Shown: piece by piece, positions 24,975 through 30,704 of the stretch
How positions within the stretch are numbered: position 1 is the stretch's first letter
Layout of the letters: the number at the start of each line of letters is the position of its first letter
DNA from: an uncultured delta proteobacterium
GTDB taxonomy: Bacteria; Desulfobacterota; Syntrophia; Syntrophales; Smithellaceae
Length of the DNA stretch: 32,276 nucleotides
Direction of reading: 5' to 3'
NCBI GenBank assembly: GCA_903907985.1
Contig: CAIVQG010000016.1
Coordinates: 1-32,276 of the forward strand
Made by a program: the position numbers and the translations under genes
The notes under the pieces: model-generated
What the model was told of the DNA's origin: nothing
Database searches by the model: none
The model's input: the letters and a program-made list of their open reading frames with translations, nothing else

Positions 24975-26282
24975 TTACATTTTCCGTTTATCAATTACCC
25001 TGCTCGCCTTACCTTCAGATCGCTGGAGCGATTTTGGCTCCACAAGCTTGATTTTTGCCGTGATCCCCAGGTAATCTTTCATATCTTTTAAAATCATCTT
25101 TTCGAGCTTCTGCAAGACCTTCACTTCGTCGGCATTAGCAAACTGGCTTTCCGTAACTTCGACCTGGACCTCCAACGTATCAAGAGTGCCTTCACGGTCA
25201 ACAATCAGTTGATAATGTGGTTCGAGGCCTTTGATGCCGACCAGCACGGCCTCGATCTGGGAAGGAAAGACATTGACGCCCCGGATGATGAGCATATCGT
25301 CGCTGCGGCCCATTACGCGGTCCATGCGGTAAGATGTCCGGCCGCACCGGCAGGGTAATGGATACAGACGGGAAATATCGCGGGTCCGGTAACGGATCAG
25401 GGGAAAGGCTTCCTTGGTGATAGTTGTAAAGACCAGTTCGCCCTGTTCACCGGGAGGGAGAACCTCACCCGTTTCCGGATTGATGGTTTCCACCAGGAAA
25501 TGATCTTCGAAAATATGCATGCCTTCCTGTGCGTCGCTGCATTCCATGGCGACTCCCGGTCCCATGATTTCGGAAAGGCCGTAGATATTCATAGCTTTAA
25601 TATCAAAAGCTTTTTCAATTTCCTGGCGCATTTGTTCGCTCCATGGTTCGGCGCCGAAGATACCAACCCGCAGGTTCAGAGAGCGCATATCGATACCCAT
25701 GGCTTGTCCCTGTTCCGCCAGATTCAGGGCATAAGAAGGAGTGCAGCAGATTGCCGTCGGGCCAAAATCCTGCAGAATCATGAGCTGCCGTTTGGTGTTG
25801 CCGCCGGACATGGGGATAACGCTGGCCCCGAGCTTTTCCGCTCCGTAATGAAGTCCCAAGCCACCCGTAAACAGTCCGTAACCATAAGCATTATGGATTA
25901 CATCATTCTTTGTTAGGTTGGCGGCAACAAGACAGCGCGCCACCAGTTCCGCCCAAGTTTCGATATCACGCTTCGTATAGCCGACGACTGTAGAACGGCC
26001 TGTTGTTCCCGAAGATGCGTGCAGGCGGACAACACTGCTCATGGGCGTGGCAAATAAGCCAAAGGGATAATTGTCCCGTAAATCCTGTTTGGTGGTAAAG
26101 GGGAATTGTTTGAGGTCAGAAAGAGATTTGATGTTATCCGGAGATACACCCGCTTTGTCAAAGGACTTTTTATAGAAACCGACACAGTGATAGACACGAT
26201 TAACAACTTGCTGTAATCGCTTTAATTGTAATGCTTCCAGGGCTTCCCTGGGTAGTGTTTCATATTCCTCATTGTAGATCAT
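24975..26282 (-). CDS. paaK: Phenylacetate-CoA ligase-type adenylate-forming enzyme
   Basis: 435 residues, the usual PaaK length. Such enzymes activate phenylacetate or related aryl acids with ATP and CoA to the acyl-CoA. ASSGTTGR near residues 89-96 is the ATP-binding P loop. [19 protein letters not shown] and the [22 protein letters not shown] segment are typical, with the RCGR cysteines characteristic of PaaK. The C-terminal domain has MIIKG-like [17 protein letters not shown] and ends with a Lys-containing [10 protein letters not shown] that supplies the acyl-adenylate lysine. Anaerobes carry several paralogues and the true substrate here is uncertain. No other phenylacetate gene is adjacent. 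An AGGAG lies before the ATG. Confidence 0.92.
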
Positions 26283-26401
26283 CCGTCCCGTTCTCCTGTA
26301 GATATATTTATTATCCTATAGCATAAGCTGAAATAGCAGAGCAAGGAGCAAACAATAATATTAATCACCTGCACCTCATAATTTTCAGTAATGTTATTTC
26401 C

Positions 26402-26430
26402 TTGACACCAAAGTCTTTGCTCCATATACT
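26402..26430 (+). promoter_or_regulatory. Consensus-like promoter for the emrAB pair
   Basis: TTGACA (26402-26407) and TATACT (26425-26430) are exactly 17 bases apart, about 75 bases before emrA. It is the strongest protein-gene promoter seen in the window. No clear operator was found beside it. Confidence 0.75.
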
Positions 26431-26504
26431 CAGCACATTCTGGATAGGTATTTGGAATAAACAAAATAAATACAGTATCTTGCAAGGGTAAATCCGGAGC
26501 ATAT

Positions 26505-27587
26505 ATGAACGATGTGGTAAATAAGTTTAAAGGTCGCTTAGGGCTGATTTTCCTGGCAGTGGCTATTGTTGTTATAGCTGGCGGATTTTACTTTTTTCAG
26601 CGTTATCGAACTACACACGTTTCCACTGACGACGCCTATGCCACGGGAAGAATACATGTGGTGGCTTCCAAAGTTCCCGGGACAGTCAAGACGTTGCTGG
26701 TTAAGGACAACCAGTTTGTTAAAGAGAAAGATGTGTTGCTGGAGATTGATGATCAGGACTACAGTGTAAAAGTGAGAGAGTCTGAATCTACTGTGGGGGC
26801 TGAAAAAGCCAGGCTTGAGGAAATAGGCTCGCGCACTGAAGTTGCCCGTAAACAGCTTACGGAATTTAATTTCCGAATGGAATCAGCCCGGGCAAATCTC
26901 CGACTTGCGGATGTTAATCTCCAACAGTCTCAGACTGATTTAAAACGCATGGAACGTCTCTTTGCCAATAAAATCATTGCTGAAGAACAATACGACAAAG
27001 CAAAAACTGCTTATGAAGGCGACCTTGCCCGTGCGCAGTCGGCGCGTGAGCAATTTGGCCAGGCCAGGGCTGCCTTGGAAACTCAAAATGCTTTGATTAA
27101 GCAGATGGCAGCAGCACAAATATCACAAAAATCATCCGTGAGACAAAAACAAGAAACGCTGGAAGCTGATCGCTTGAAAAAAAGTTATACGTCGATTTAC
27201 GCGCCTTCGTCTGGGTATGTGACAAAGAAATCGGTCGAAGCGGGCAATCAGATTCAGGCTGGTCAGCCTCTGATGGCCTTGGTACCGCTTACCGATGTCT
27301 GGATTATTGCCAATTACAAGGAGACTCAACTGGAAATGGTAAAGTCCGGACAGAAGGTGGTGGTTAAAGTGGATTCTTATCCCGGAAAGAAATTTTACGG
27401 TAAAGTGGAGAGTATTATGGCCGGAACGGGGGCGGCTTTTTCGCTTTTCCCACCGGAAAATGCAACCGGAAATTATGTCAAAGTCGTGCAGAGAATTCCC
27501 GTTAAAATTGTTCTTGATGCCGGCACCGATCCGGATAAGCTACTGCGGGTCGGCATGTCTGTGGAACCGACTATCATAGTGGAGTAA
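26505..27587 (+). CDS. emrA: EmrA-type membrane-fusion (HlyD family) protein
   Basis: 360 residues. A single N-terminal transmembrane helix (about 12-31) is followed by the family opening THVSTDDAYATGRIHVVASKVPG, then a lipoyl half, a long alpha-helical hairpin (about 85-220, coiled coil) and the second lipoyl half (SIYAPSSGYVTKKSVEAGNQ). The beta-barrel segment includes VWIIANYKETQLEMVKSGQ. It links the EmrB inner-membrane pump to an outer-membrane TolC-like channel in drug or toxic-compound efflux. No TolC gene and no MarR/TetR regulator gene is in the window. GGAG precedes the ATG at 5 bases. emrB follows after 9 bases. Confidence 0.95.
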   Translation: MNDVVNKFKGRLGLIFLAVAIVVIAGGFYFFQRYRTTHVSTDDAYATGRIHVVASKVPGTVKTLLVKDNQFVKEKDVLLEIDDQDYSVKVRESESTVGAEKARLEEIGSRTEVARKQLTEFNFRMESARANLRLADVNLQQSQTDLKRMERLFANKIIAEEQYDKAKTAYEGDLARAQSAREQFGQARAALETQNALIKQMAAAQISQKSSVRQKQETLEADRLKKSYTSIYAPSSGYVTKKSVEAGNQIQAGQPLMALVPLTDVWIIANYKETQLEMVKSGQKVVVKVDSYPGKKFYGKVESIMAGTGAAFSLFPPENATGNYVKVVQRIPVKIVLDAGTDPDKLLRVGMSVEPTIIVE

Positions 27588-27596
27588 TCAATCCTT

Positions 27597-29132
27597 ATGG
27601 CGAGACCGATTGATAAATGGATCGTCGCTCTTACCGTGATGCTGCCCACACTAATGGTTATTATTGATACATCCGTTGTCAATGTGTCGCTGGATCACAT
27701 TCGTGGCAGCCTTTCCGCCGGTATCGACGAAGCGACCTGGTCCATCACTTCTTATCTCGCTGCCAATGCCGTCGTTATTCCGATGACGGGATGGCTCAGC
27801 CGCTTTTTTGGCCGTAAGCGCTTTCTGATCTTTTCTGTATTGCTGTTTACCGGTAGCTCTCTTCTTTGCGGTCTGGCCTGGAATATTCAGAGTCTGATTT
27901 TCTTTAGAGTGCTGCAGGGTTTAGCCGGTGGTTCATTGCAACCAATTTCTCAATCCATTTTACTGGAAACATTTCCTCCGGCTCAGCACGGCACTGCTAT
28001 GGCTATTTTTGGTATGGGCACAATGTTCGGCCCCATCATGGGTCCGCTCATGGGTGGATGGATAACGGATAACTGGTCCTGGCACTGGATCTTTTTTATT
28101 AATATTCCTATCGGCATTATTTCGCTTATCATGTCTCTCTGGTTCATCCGCGATCCTCATTATATGAAGCGTAACGTCACTTCTATTGACTATTGGGGAC
28201 TCACGCTGCTCAGTGTATGGGTGGGCTGCCTGCAGATGGTCCTCGACAAAGGACAGCGGGAAGATTGGTTTGCTTCTGATTTCATCCTCATTCTGACAAT
28301 AATTGCCATAGCGGCTTTCATTCTTTTCATATTTGTTGAGCTTACCGCCGATCACCCAATTGTGGATTTGAGAATTTTTCTGAGCTATTCGTTTTTGTCG
28401 GGCAATATTGTCATCTTCTTTGTCGTTGCCGGTCTTTTCGGCAGCATTATTCTTTTGCCTATCTATCTGCAAAGCCTGATGGGTTATACCGCGTCGCTGG
28501 CCGGGATGATTCTTGGCCCGGGAGGGATTGCCATTTTTCTGGTTATGCCGATCGTCGGCTGGCTGATTACGGTGGTGAATCCCAAACTGATTGTTGCTGT
28601 AGGTCTTGTTATTTTTGCTTATGCCAATTATGTAATGAGCGGATTTAATATGTCGGCTGATTTCATGTCGATCATATGGCCGCGTGTCATCATGAGCGTA
28701 GGCTTGGGCATGGTTTTCATACCTTTGACCACACTATCGTTATCCAGCATTCCCAAAGAAGAAATGGGCAATGCAACATCTATTTTTAATCTCGTGAGAA
28801 ATCTTGGCGGAAGCGTTGGTGTGGCATTTGCGGCAACAATGTTATCCCGAGGAACACAGATTCATCAGGCTTATCTGAGTGAACATATAACATTATTTGA
28901 CTTGGATTACTTGCGCGCTGCCAGTCAGTCGGCTCAACTTCTGTCACAGAAGGGAATGGATCCGGTAACGGCCGAACAGGGTGGGGCCGGCATCATTTAT
29001 AATGAACTTCTCAGACAGGCGTATATGCTGTCCTTTAATGATGTGTTTTTTGTTCTGGCAATCATGATGCTTTGCATGCTGCCCTTCATACTGTTTATTC
29101 GCCATGTTGATCATAGCGCTGTAAAGCCGTAA
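27597..29132 (+). CDS. emrB: EmrB/QacA-type multidrug efflux MFS transporter (DHA2 family)
   Basis: 511 residues with about 14 hydrophobic segments, the DHA2 drug:H+ antiporter layout. The opening WIVALTVMLPTLMVIIDTSVVNVSL with Asp in the first helix, GWLSRFFGRKRFLIFS (motif A) and GMGTMFGPIMGPLMGG (motif C of antiporters) are clear. It works with EmrA to expel lipophilic compounds. GGAG of its ribosome binding site overlaps the emrA stop, so the two genes form one operon. It is convergent with the iron-sulfur gene after it. Confidence 0.95.
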   Translation: MARPIDKWIVALTVMLPTLMVIIDTSVVNVSLDHIRGSLSAGIDEATWSITSYLAANAVVIPMTGWLSRFFGRKRFLIFSVLLFTGSSLLCGLAWNIQSLIFFRVLQGLAGGSLQPISQSILLETFPPAQHGTAMAIFGMGTMFGPIMGPLMGGWITDNWSWHWIFFINIPIGIISLIMSLWFIRDPHYMKRNVTSIDYWGLTLLSVWVGCLQMVLDKGQREDWFASDFILILTIIAIAAFILFIFVELTADHPIVDLRIFLSYSFLSGNIVIFFVVAGLFGSIILLPIYLQSLMGYTASLAGMILGPGGIAIFLVMPIVGWLITVVNPKLIVAVGLVIFAYANYVMSGFNMSADFMSIIWPRVIMSVGLGMVFIPLTTLSLSSIPKEEMGNATSIFNLVRNLGGSVGVAFAATMLSRGTQIHQAYLSEHITLFDLDYLRAASQSAQLLSQKGMDPVTAEQGGAGIIYNELLRQAYMLSFNDVFFVLAIMMLCMLPFILFIRHVDHSAVKP

Positions 29133-29175: not shown

Positions 29176-30309
29176 TTATTTTCTCTTGGGCGGAATCCTT
29201 ACTATCCTTTCGCCTTCAATCATTGATATCGCATTTTGCGGGCAGAAGTGCGCGCACACCCCGCAGCCGATGCAGAGTTCTTCCTTCCTGCGGGCCTTTT
29301 TATCGTCGTTTAAATAAGCCGCATAGGTATGGCATTCTTTTACACACTTACCACAGCCGATGCAGAGCTCGTCGTTAACCATGGATAAAAAATTGGTCGC
29401 GTTAGTCATAGGGGCGATCATGTTATCAATTCCGTTGGCGCAGCAGCATCGGCAACAGTTGCAAATGCTGGTTTCTTCCTTGCTGGTATCGAAATTGGGA
29501 TGATAGGCCTTATGCACAAGTCCGGCTTCCTCAGCCCGCTTTAAAACACTCAATGCCTCATCTTTGGTAATCATCCGGGAAAAACCCTGCTCCGACGTAA
29601 ATTTCGCCGATTTGCCGAAAGTGAAGCAGGTCTCCCGGTCATCAGTTTGTTTACAGTGCGTTCCTGCCAAATCTTTATAATGACGGCAGAAACAATGACC
29701 CAGCGCAATCTCGTCAAATTTTAAAATAAGTTCCTCAACCTTTTGAGAAGGAACAATTCTGTCCATTGCTGTTCCCAGGTCCTTATTTATTATTATTTTG
29801 ACCGGTTCATTTTTTGGTTTGTTTTCTAAAACCGGCACGGTTCTGTCTATCGGCGGGGCGGTCATCAGAAAAGGGATCAGCGAATCATAATTTTCCTGAA
29901 GCATGCTTTGCAAATCCCCGAACATTTTATTGAACAAGGAATATATCTCCATGTTCCGGTCATTTTTCTCTAATTTACCCATGAAATTGTATTCAAAAGT
30001 TCCGACGTTCAACAGCGGCAGTAATCGAAAAACCATAATCCCCTTGCTGTTGGGCTGATTAAATATAACGCCCCTGCCGGCCAGGTCCTTTACTTTTTGG
30101 GTGATTTCTTCTTCCGCTAATCCGCTCGACAGTTTTAACTGCTCCATGGTCTGGGATTTTTTATCGTTGAAAGAAGCAATAAAATCCACTTCGTCTTCCA
30201 TAATAAAAAATTTTAAAAGCTTGATCAGAGTATCGTTAACAGTAACCGGCGTTCCTCCGGCTTTGCTGATGATGTCACCAGCTTTTCTGTATTTTTCATC
30301 AATATTCAT
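29176..30309 (-). CDS. Multi-cluster 4Fe-4S protein with N-terminal winged-helix-like domain
   Basis: 377 residues. Residues 1-110 have a helical, winged-helix-like pattern (MEQLKLSSGLAEEEITQKVKDL) with no cysteine. The middle part has GHCFCRHYKDLAGTHC (Cys206, 208, 219), Cys228 and a dense CNCCRCCCANG at 283-292. The C-terminal 70 residues carry two ferredoxin clusters: CIGCGKCVKEC (316-326) and CIGCGVCAHFCP (346-356). The total suggests two ferredoxin clusters plus a further metal or cluster site. The ferredoxin part implies electron transfer; the N-terminal part suggests a DNA- or protein-binding role, but this is inference. No partner oxidoreductase is adjacent. GGAGG precedes the ATG at 7 bases. 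I recognise the type from anaerobes but no assigned function. Confidence 0.85.
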   Translation of the reverse strand: MNIDEKYRKAGDIISKAGGTPVTVNDTLIKLLKFFIMEDEVDFIASFNDKKSQTMEQLKLSSGLAEEEITQKVKDLAGRGVIFNQPNSKGIMVFRLLPLLNVGTFEYNFMGKLEKNDRNMEIYSLFNKMFGDLQSMLQENYDSLIPFLMTAPPIDRTVPVLENKPKNEPVKIIINKDLGTAMDRIVPSQKVEELILKFDEIALGHCFCRHYKDLAGTHCKQTDDRETCFTFGKSAKFTSEQGFSRMITKDEALSVLKRAEEAGLVHKAYHPNFDTSKEETSICNCCRCCCANGIDNMIAPMTNATNFLSMVNDELCIGCGKCVKECHTYAAYLNDDKKARRKEELCIGCGVCAHFCPQNAISMIEGERIVRIPPKRK

Positions 30310-30704
30310 ATTTATTCCTCCGAATTTTATTGAGAATCATTTGATAAGCAGCCGCTGAGGCCAATGAAAACAAATCTTCTACATCAATAACTATGCTTGA
30401 TAATGTTTTGTTTTCGCTGGCACGCAGTATAGGGGGGCTGTTTTTGCTTGTCAATGAATATTGCATGTCAAATGCAGACTTGACCCGTCACTTTATTATG
30501 ATATGATGATCTTCAATGTGGGGAGGCTGAGCGAAAGTATATATGATTTCAATCCCTTCGTTTAGCGTCAGCGAAAAAAGCCACTCAGGTTCCCCTGCTG
30601 CCATCTATCGCCAAGATGCAGCTTCGTCGTTCTGCAGTCAATATGATGTTTCAAAGTAGCTTGACACTGAAATTAGCTGCTATGCAGACTTGGAGGATAC
30701 AGCA
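30310..30704. other. Intergenic region upstream of the CHASE-domain kinase gene
   Basis: About 395 bases with no convincing gene. It contains a promoter candidate (30480-30507) and two copies of ATGCAGACTTG (30472-30482 and 30682-30692), one overlapping that promoter and one just before the kinase ribosome binding site. A 38-codon open frame starts at 30543, but its ribosome binding site is too far away. The leader between promoter and kinase is about 190 bases and has a weak potential to fold (GCTGA/TCAGC). No known riboswitch was recognised. Confidence 0.5.
30480..30507 (+). promoter_or_regulatory. Candidate promoter for the CHASE-domain kinase
   Basis: TTGACC (30480-30485) and TATGAT (30502-30507) are 16 bases apart on the plus strand, about 200 bases before the start codon. 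Confidence 0.5.

Follow-up and report, generated by a model that had tools for sequence, protein, structure and literature searches.

A stand-alone winged-helix, Cys-rich and ferredoxin protein that is probably akin to the N-terminal part of the putative isoprene reductase IsrA

The gene at 29176..30309 of the window (the whole stretch of DNA that was analysed, 32,276 nucleotides) encodes a protein of 377 amino acids in which a winged-helix N-terminus is joined to a Cys-rich core and two ferredoxin cubane motifs. We propose, with modest confidence, that it is a stand-alone form of the cluster V module of IsrA with a 2[4Fe-4S] domain of its own, acting as a reductase or electron-transfer component that is possibly nickel-dependent. 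The data are accounted for most simply by a stand-alone cluster V module that has a ferredoxin domain of its own, and a redox enzyme or electron-transfer protein is more likely than a gene regulator. The features on which the argument draws are these:

29176..30309, minus strand: whole gene, an open reading frame with an ATG start and 377 aa; its full-length orthologues are 72-90% identical.
30426..30454, minus strand: sigma-70-like promoter, TTGACA-N17-TATACT, with 11 of 12 consensus bases.
30022..30234, minus strand: winged-helix domain, residues 26-96, with AlphaFold topology H-H-E-H-H-E-E and matches to TrmB and 6cmv profiles.
29977..30003, minus strand: post-wing segment, residues 103-111, with G103, E106 and M110 conserved in 57 members.
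29422..29751, minus strand: Cys-rich alpha/beta core, residues 187-296, with six universal residues (206, 208, 228, 283, 285, 290) among its ten Cys.
29686..29694, minus strand: CxC pair C206-F-C208, invariant in 72 of 72 rows and the probable counterpart of IsrA Cys180-x-Cys182.
29440..29463, minus strand: CNCCRCCC, residues 283-290, in which C283-x-C285 is the probable counterpart of IsrA Cys254-x-Cys256.
29242..29364, minus strand: 2[4Fe-4S] ferredoxin domain, C316 to C356 (Pfam Fer4 2.6e-12, Fer4_21 1.1e-10).

The motifs picked out by the first-pass annotation are all present in the translated reading frame (GHCFCRHY at residues 204-211, CNCCRCCC at 283-290 and two copies of CxxCxxCxxxC), and they are not chance occurrences, as eight of the core Cys and all the ferredoxin Cys are invariant in an alignment of 57 stand-alone members of the family (alignment A4, with the short, wing-less relatives L113 and L114 left out). 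The two ferredoxin clusters that it had named are borne out by both motifs, C316-x2-C319-x2-C322-x3-C326 and C346-x2-C349-x2-C352-x3-C356, by the Fer4 score and by the invariance of all eight of these Cys in the 57 members. Fer4-type domains were the only ones above cut-off in Pfam, NCBIfam likewise recognized just the ferredoxin end (approximately residues 310-363), and neither Fer4_20 nor an FAD/NAD(P)-binding domain was found by Pfam before the reading frame stops at 377 aa. The likeness to 2[4Fe-4S] ferredoxins (Fer4, Fer4_21) is confined to residues 310-363, the window protein being longer by about 300 N-terminal residues. An AlphaFold model with 19 sequences as input had a mean pLDDT of 66 overall, and Foldseek with the whole model returned ferredoxins on top and MarR-type regulators just at E 0.04-0.1.

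The dense CNCCRCCC segment had been described as unlike normal ferredoxins, and the conservation of the core supports an unusual Cys arrangement. Along with Cys from the two motifs, the core contains C219 and C228, and the residues that are invariant in the 57 members are C206, C208, C219, C228, C283, C285, C286 and C290. Adding L113 and L114 gives 59 rows, in which C206, C208, C283, C285, C290 and the ferredoxin Cys are kept in all 59, C228 in 58, C219 and C286 in 57 each, C289 in 55 and C288 in 50 (8 rows have Asp). A further set of 72 rows, made of the 57 stand-alone members and 15 flavoprotein fusions without L113 and L114, leaves six universal core Cys (206, 208, 228, 283, 285 and 290), followed by C219 (71 rows), C286 (68), C288 (61) and C289 (55); R209 and the six Cys are common to all 15 aligned fusions. 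L113 and L114 are themselves relatives of 298-310 aa with a diverged core and no winged helix (L113:5661-6557, L114:5817-6749); judged by eye, one of them has a B12-type radical SAM-like gene as its neighbour and the other an FAD oxidoreductase-like gene.

Our searches gave no usable match of the core to a known fold: no Pfam family was above cut-off for 59 core segments (residues 186-306), the core profile matched no meaningful PDB chain, and with the core predicted alone, a weak model (pLDDT 66) in which a known fold may go unrecognized, the best Foldseek E was 0.22 and VIA gave one chain at Z 2.8. Matches of the core to PPR proteins (E from 3.5e-6) were discarded, as they span a single helical stretch of some 27 residues and none of the domains reached the threshold by itself. 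The CxCR motif is shared with the catalytic subunit of ferredoxin:thioredoxin reductase (FTR; PF02943), where it takes the form CPCRHY within the Cys pattern CPC-CPC-CHC, and 32 of 40 related genomes are positive for FTR beta subunits. An FTR-like thiol reductase was rejected, hhalign against 19 FTR proteins giving 1.6% probability with the Cys motifs unaligned; this comparison used 19 of 20 fetched loci and an FTR profile that is narrow (Neff 2.2).

IsrA is a putative isoprene reductase of 901 aa from Acetobacterium wieringae, encoded with HypA and HypB in the isr operon that is induced by isoprene, and the evidence for its activity is proteomic and does not come from purified enzyme (Kronen et al., 2023; PMC10134865). 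In that paper IsrA is modelled with four cubanes and a fifth, six-Cys site, 'cluster V', which includes Cys180-x-Cys182 and Cys254-x-Cys256 and is seen by the authors as a possible nickel and substrate site, who detected no domain within residues 1-270. The same operon encodes a 350-aa '4Fe-4S ferredoxin' (VUZ27135.1, ENOG4105DQ9) that increases with isoprene, is predicted to carry one cubane and aligns to IsrA over its first ~270 aa; the authors observed no association of it with HypA/HypB, and among 988 IsrA homologues the values given are 0.73 for HypA, 0.56 for HypB and 0.40 for DUF5692 (PMC10134865). The last of these was named in just one paper found in our literature search, PMC10134865.

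The kinship of the window family with IsrA would run through IsrA-like fusions. In the phylum of Clostridium, some family-profile matches (E down to 1.9e-66) lie inside open frames of ~900-960 aa, and in the three fusions examined with Pfam (L241, L311 and L312) the module is followed by Fer4, Fer4_20 and Pyr_redox_2, the fused flavoprotein part being GltD-like (FAD/NAD(P)H). Two proteins of the window's own taxonomic family have this plan, L241 by Pfam and L242 by sequence. Gene order in a Clostridium is HypB, fusion, HypA, DUF5692, and across the 13 fetched stretches with fusion loci (8 genomes of that phylum) HypA and/or HypB was present in 12 and DUF5692 in 9. From their domain plan and neighbours, the ~900-aa fusions probably belong to IsrA-like clade 9, and by way of them the CxC pairs 206/208 and 283/285 would be the counterparts of the IsrA pairs. 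The six Cys that are invariant across the 57 stand-alone members and 15 fusions equal the published Cys6 site in number and in having two CxC pairs (PMC10134865); the earlier suggestion of a further cluster or metal in the CNCCRCCC segment is in line with this model, and the matching pairs are invariant.

As described there, IsrA and its clade 9 homologues have an N-terminal ~270 aa with two CxC pairs and then a ferredoxin cubane, as does the window protein, and relatives of both are linked to HypA, HypB, TetR and DUF5692. The window protein differs in having no Fer4_20 or FAD/NAD(P) domains, more Cys in CNCCRCCC, a second ferredoxin motif directly behind the first and a locus of its own without HypA/HypB. 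It has the plan published for the isr 'ferredoxin' (about 350 aa, an IsrA-like first 270 aa and a C-terminal ferredoxin), with two motifs where one cubane is predicted for VUZ27135.1. New here are the findings that the stretch of IsrA 1-270 type consists of a winged helix and a Cys core, that six Cys are universal in the aligned relatives and that stand-alone copies are numerous and widespread. Whether the family had already been characterized can be answered by half: IsrA has proteomic evidence, but no characterized stand-alone member was found in open-licence PMC full text, where the stand-alone family was named nowhere but as the isr 'ferredoxin'; it is unnamed in the parts of PMC9765523, PMC12583861 and PMC11247825 that were available.

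The first-pass annotation saw in the N-terminus the helical pattern of a small DNA-binding domain, and as a fold this was right. The structure prediction it had suggested returned a winged helix over residues 26-96, and not its absence, with pLDDT block means of 81-94 for residues 21-100 and supporting matches to winged-helix profiles. Of the 57 members, 34 matched Pfam TrmB with E values of 1 or lower, the best being 1.3e-6; the window's own N-terminus alone matched no Pfam model in that range, and the N-terminal profile matched PDB 6cmv, an Lrs14-like regulator, at E 5.1e-7. Also among the matches were PDB 4ch7, a NirD-like protein (E 0.019), and, for 10 of the 57 members at E up to 1, the Pfam NirD-like HTH. 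Siroheme decarboxylases are enzymes, and in view of the NirD-like matches the winged-helix fold need not bind DNA. The fold of residues 26-96 is held in common with TrmB, Lrs14, MarR and ArsR regulators, from which the window family is set apart by its added Cys core and ferredoxin part, a wing that is not basic and the existence of enzyme fusions.

A redox- or metal-sensing transcription regulator, in which the wing would bind DNA and the clusters would sense redox, oxygen or nickel, is for us an unlikely explanation, even though the N-terminal profile is nearest to winged-helix regulators, there are several paralogues per genome and the gene is often alone, apparently with its own promoter. 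The TTGACA-N17-TATACT site is probably the gene's own promoter; its region has 5 promoter-like sites against a shuffle mean of 4.1, and by eye a like arrangement is seen in 11 of 20 aligned upstream regions, the window's among them. No common palindrome was seen in these 20 regions, which align poorly (L105 gave no upstream region and was left out); this may speak against a regulator, and autoregulation was rejected as a candidate on the same result. Mean wing net charge may likewise count against DNA binding, being -0.84 in the 57 members (residues 38-97; -2 in the window protein) compared with +1.96 in 26 MarR and +0.79 in 14 ArsR proteins of related genomes, although the controls overlap widely with the family and the spans are not quite equal, that of ArsR being extended by 18 residues. 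These controls were the best-scoring matches with a locus, 26 of 52 for MarR and 14 of 23 for ArsR. The sole N-terminal positions at least 90% conserved in the 57-member N-terminal alignment are G103, E106 and M110, the first two being kept in 15 of 15 flavoprotein fusions and M110 in just 6 of 15. Top conservation thus lies after the wing and not in the recognition helix, which again counts against a regulator, with the proviso that paralogues with different targets would vary in that helix too. That the module also occurs fused to enzymes, an NAD(P)H/FAD oxidoreductase in some cases and an acyl-CoA synthetase in another, is a further point against such a role.

Across the window's phylum, 148 of 296 genomes matched the family profile at E 1e-20 or better, as did 53 of 199 genomes of the phylum of Clostridium at 1e-25, some of the latter with fusions or the core and ferredoxin part only; the per-genome counts are lower bounds, the best few candidates in each having been scored. 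Its closest relatives that carry a name suggest that the window's genome is a Smithella/Syntrophaceae-like MAG. This genome alone has eight places that match across the Cys core, the gene itself included, and 18 of the 51 genomes sampled from the window's taxonomic family, the window's included, have a full-length copy that is at least 72% identical. One paralogue in the window's genome (L108:5573-6637, contig C12) has a single in-frame stop about a third of the way along, an open relative of it being found at L259 in the same genus; the stop reflects either real decay or an assembly error.

Beside the window gene, at 24975-29132, lie an HlyD/MFS pair and a CoA ligase (Pfam AMP-binding; phenylacetate-CoA-ligase-like by eye), and histidine kinases are also nearby by eye; no HypA/HypB, hydrogenase or flavoprotein gene is beside it, and neither the HlyD/MFS pair nor the ligase shows a connection with the proposal made here. 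Neither a conserved operon partner nor a conserved whole neighbourhood was found across the family loci. A link to acyl-CoA metabolism, suggested by fusions and clusters, was rejected because such neighbours were no commoner than in control windows (acyl-CoA dehydrogenases at 3 of 71 family loci and in 4 of 40 control windows, ligases at 5 of 71 and in 4 of 40). A number of individual loci may be recorded. At L243:2017-4620 a member follows a complete acyl-CoA synthetase (AMP-binding and C-terminal domains) in a fused protein of 868 aa, and at L245:1787-5456 a family gene lies tightly between HGD-D (2-hydroxyglutaryl-CoA dehydratase type) and BadF-type ATPase genes, a position in which an electron donor would fit. 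The family gene at L152:5112-7525 adjoins amine-oxidase-type flavoprotein and ferrochelatase genes, and L154 has a neighbour of the same cluster as this ferrochelatase. Loci L253, with three family genes, and L259, with four, are near acyl-CoA dehydrogenases and a thiolase-like protein (by eye for L259), the L259 genes being also near a molybdopterin oxidoreductase.

The genomic-neighbour survey recommended by the first-pass annotation found HypA/HypB beside some relatives, but neither at the window gene nor family-wide. Within 5 kb of a family gene, HypB was present at 12 of 71 loci and HypA at 9 of 71, as against none of 40 control windows, one of which (L297) itself contains a family gene; the 71 loci are the 79 fetched less 8 in which a simple ORF caller gave no family gene. 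In the window's taxonomic family, HypA or HypB was within 5 kb at 13 of 35 family loci and in none of 22 control windows, and in other taxonomic families of the phylum at none of 36 loci and in none of 18 control windows. These counts overstate independence, as some family loci were picked for several family matches and the genomes are related. The absence from all 36 loci outside the window's taxonomic family indicates that the linkage is lineage-bound, not family-wide. Loci of non-redundant orthologues had HypB nearby in 6 of 17 cases and lacked it in 11, several of them on short contigs. In the tree, HypA/HypB-linked members fall in several separate clades, and the window protein lies in a well-supported 20-row clade (100/98) with five linked rows.

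Viewed from the HypA side, 38 of 51 genomes of the window's taxonomic family contain 62 HypA genes over the cut-off. A family match is within 5 kb of 35 of these, or of 32 when matches starting after residue 230 are excluded, three neighbours resting on matches confined to the last part of the core plus the ferredoxin region. Hydrogenase or HypD genes adjoin 15 of the 62, none of which is also beside a family match, and 12 are beside neither, the family list being partial. HypD was found in 15 of the 51 genomes, and 16 have an [NiFe]-hydrogenase large subunit that passes the cut-off; in 23 of the 38 HypA genomes neither HypD nor a large subunit passing the cut-off was found. In the window's genome one HypA belongs to a hydrogenase operon and the other to a run of overlapping genes in the order paralogue, TetR, HypA, HypB. 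In the phylum of Clostridium, HypA or HypB was present in 2 of 8 fetched stretches with a stand-alone family gene (L334, one of 20 fetched loci, showed no family gene), and at none of five loci of a clostridial subgroup of ~430 aa, from which it follows that nickel need not be general. No HypA/HypB was present in the 8.0 and 5.4 kb fetched for the fusions L241 and L242 of the window's family.

Of the two functions first offered, a multi-cluster electron carrier comes nearer than a redox-sensing regulator, as the FAD/NAD(P)H and acyl-CoA synthetase fusions, the non-basic wing and the lack of a common upstream palindrome all lean that way. In its plain form, with one or two more cubanes in the core, no catalysis and no nickel, such a carrier is possible if on balance improbable. 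The eight core Cys of the 57 stand-alone members would be enough for two [4Fe-4S], the position of the L245 relative would suit an electron donor, and HypA/HypB are lacking at all 36 loci from the phylum's other taxonomic families; against this, six Cys alone are universal once fusions are included, and the presence of HypA/HypB near relatives in the window's taxonomic family and near clostridial fusions is a hint that the metal is not iron alone. That the HypA/HypB-adjoining members are nickel carriers or stores for another enzyme, and not redox proteins, would account for a Cys-rich core with such neighbours; we regard it as highly improbable, as two ferredoxin motifs that storage does not need are kept in all 57 members and the examined fusions have FAD and NAD(P) domains that are needless for storage.

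Under the stand-alone cluster V proposal, an outside low-potential donor (ferredoxin or flavoprotein) would reduce the two cubanes at residues 316-356, from which electrons would pass to a metal cluster held by core Cys 206, 208, 228, 283, 285 and 290, with Cys 219 and 286-289 as possible extra ligands. The data themselves show the architecture, the conserved set of Cys, the relationship to the IsrA-like fusions, and the linkage of HypA/HypB both to relatives in the window's taxonomic family and to the fusions. We infer that this core cluster is present and redox-active and that electrons flow in this direction; from it they may go to a substrate that is thereby reduced, the role put forward for cluster V in IsrA, or to a partner protein. 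The winged helix would serve for packing or docking. Nickel may be delivered to the core site by HypA and HypB, whose genes adjoin those of a number of relatives, and here we speculate: the case for nickel is a guess that draws its genomic backing from one taxonomic family and the fusions, and C=C bond reduction by the family is likewise conjecture. A broader and rather doubtful extension is that the family makes up a large unrecognized class of nickel-iron-sulfur reductases in anaerobes. HypA/HypB would mature them in a role apart from hydrogenases, and the paralogues would act on different unsaturated substrates. The six-Cys core would then be the catalytic site and would have at least three electron inputs, namely its own cubanes, a fused FAD/NAD(P)H domain and partner proteins.

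If the proposal of a stand-alone cluster V module is right, a site suspected as the active centre of an isoprene reductase would occur in half the genomes sampled from the window's phylum and in about a quarter of those from the phylum of Clostridium, counting fusions and partial matches. The retention of HypA in the 23 of 38 genomes in which no [NiFe] large subunit or HypD was found would then be explained as well. The small stand-alone members may purify more easily than the 900-aa IsrA, and the question of nickel in cluster V would thereby become directly testable.
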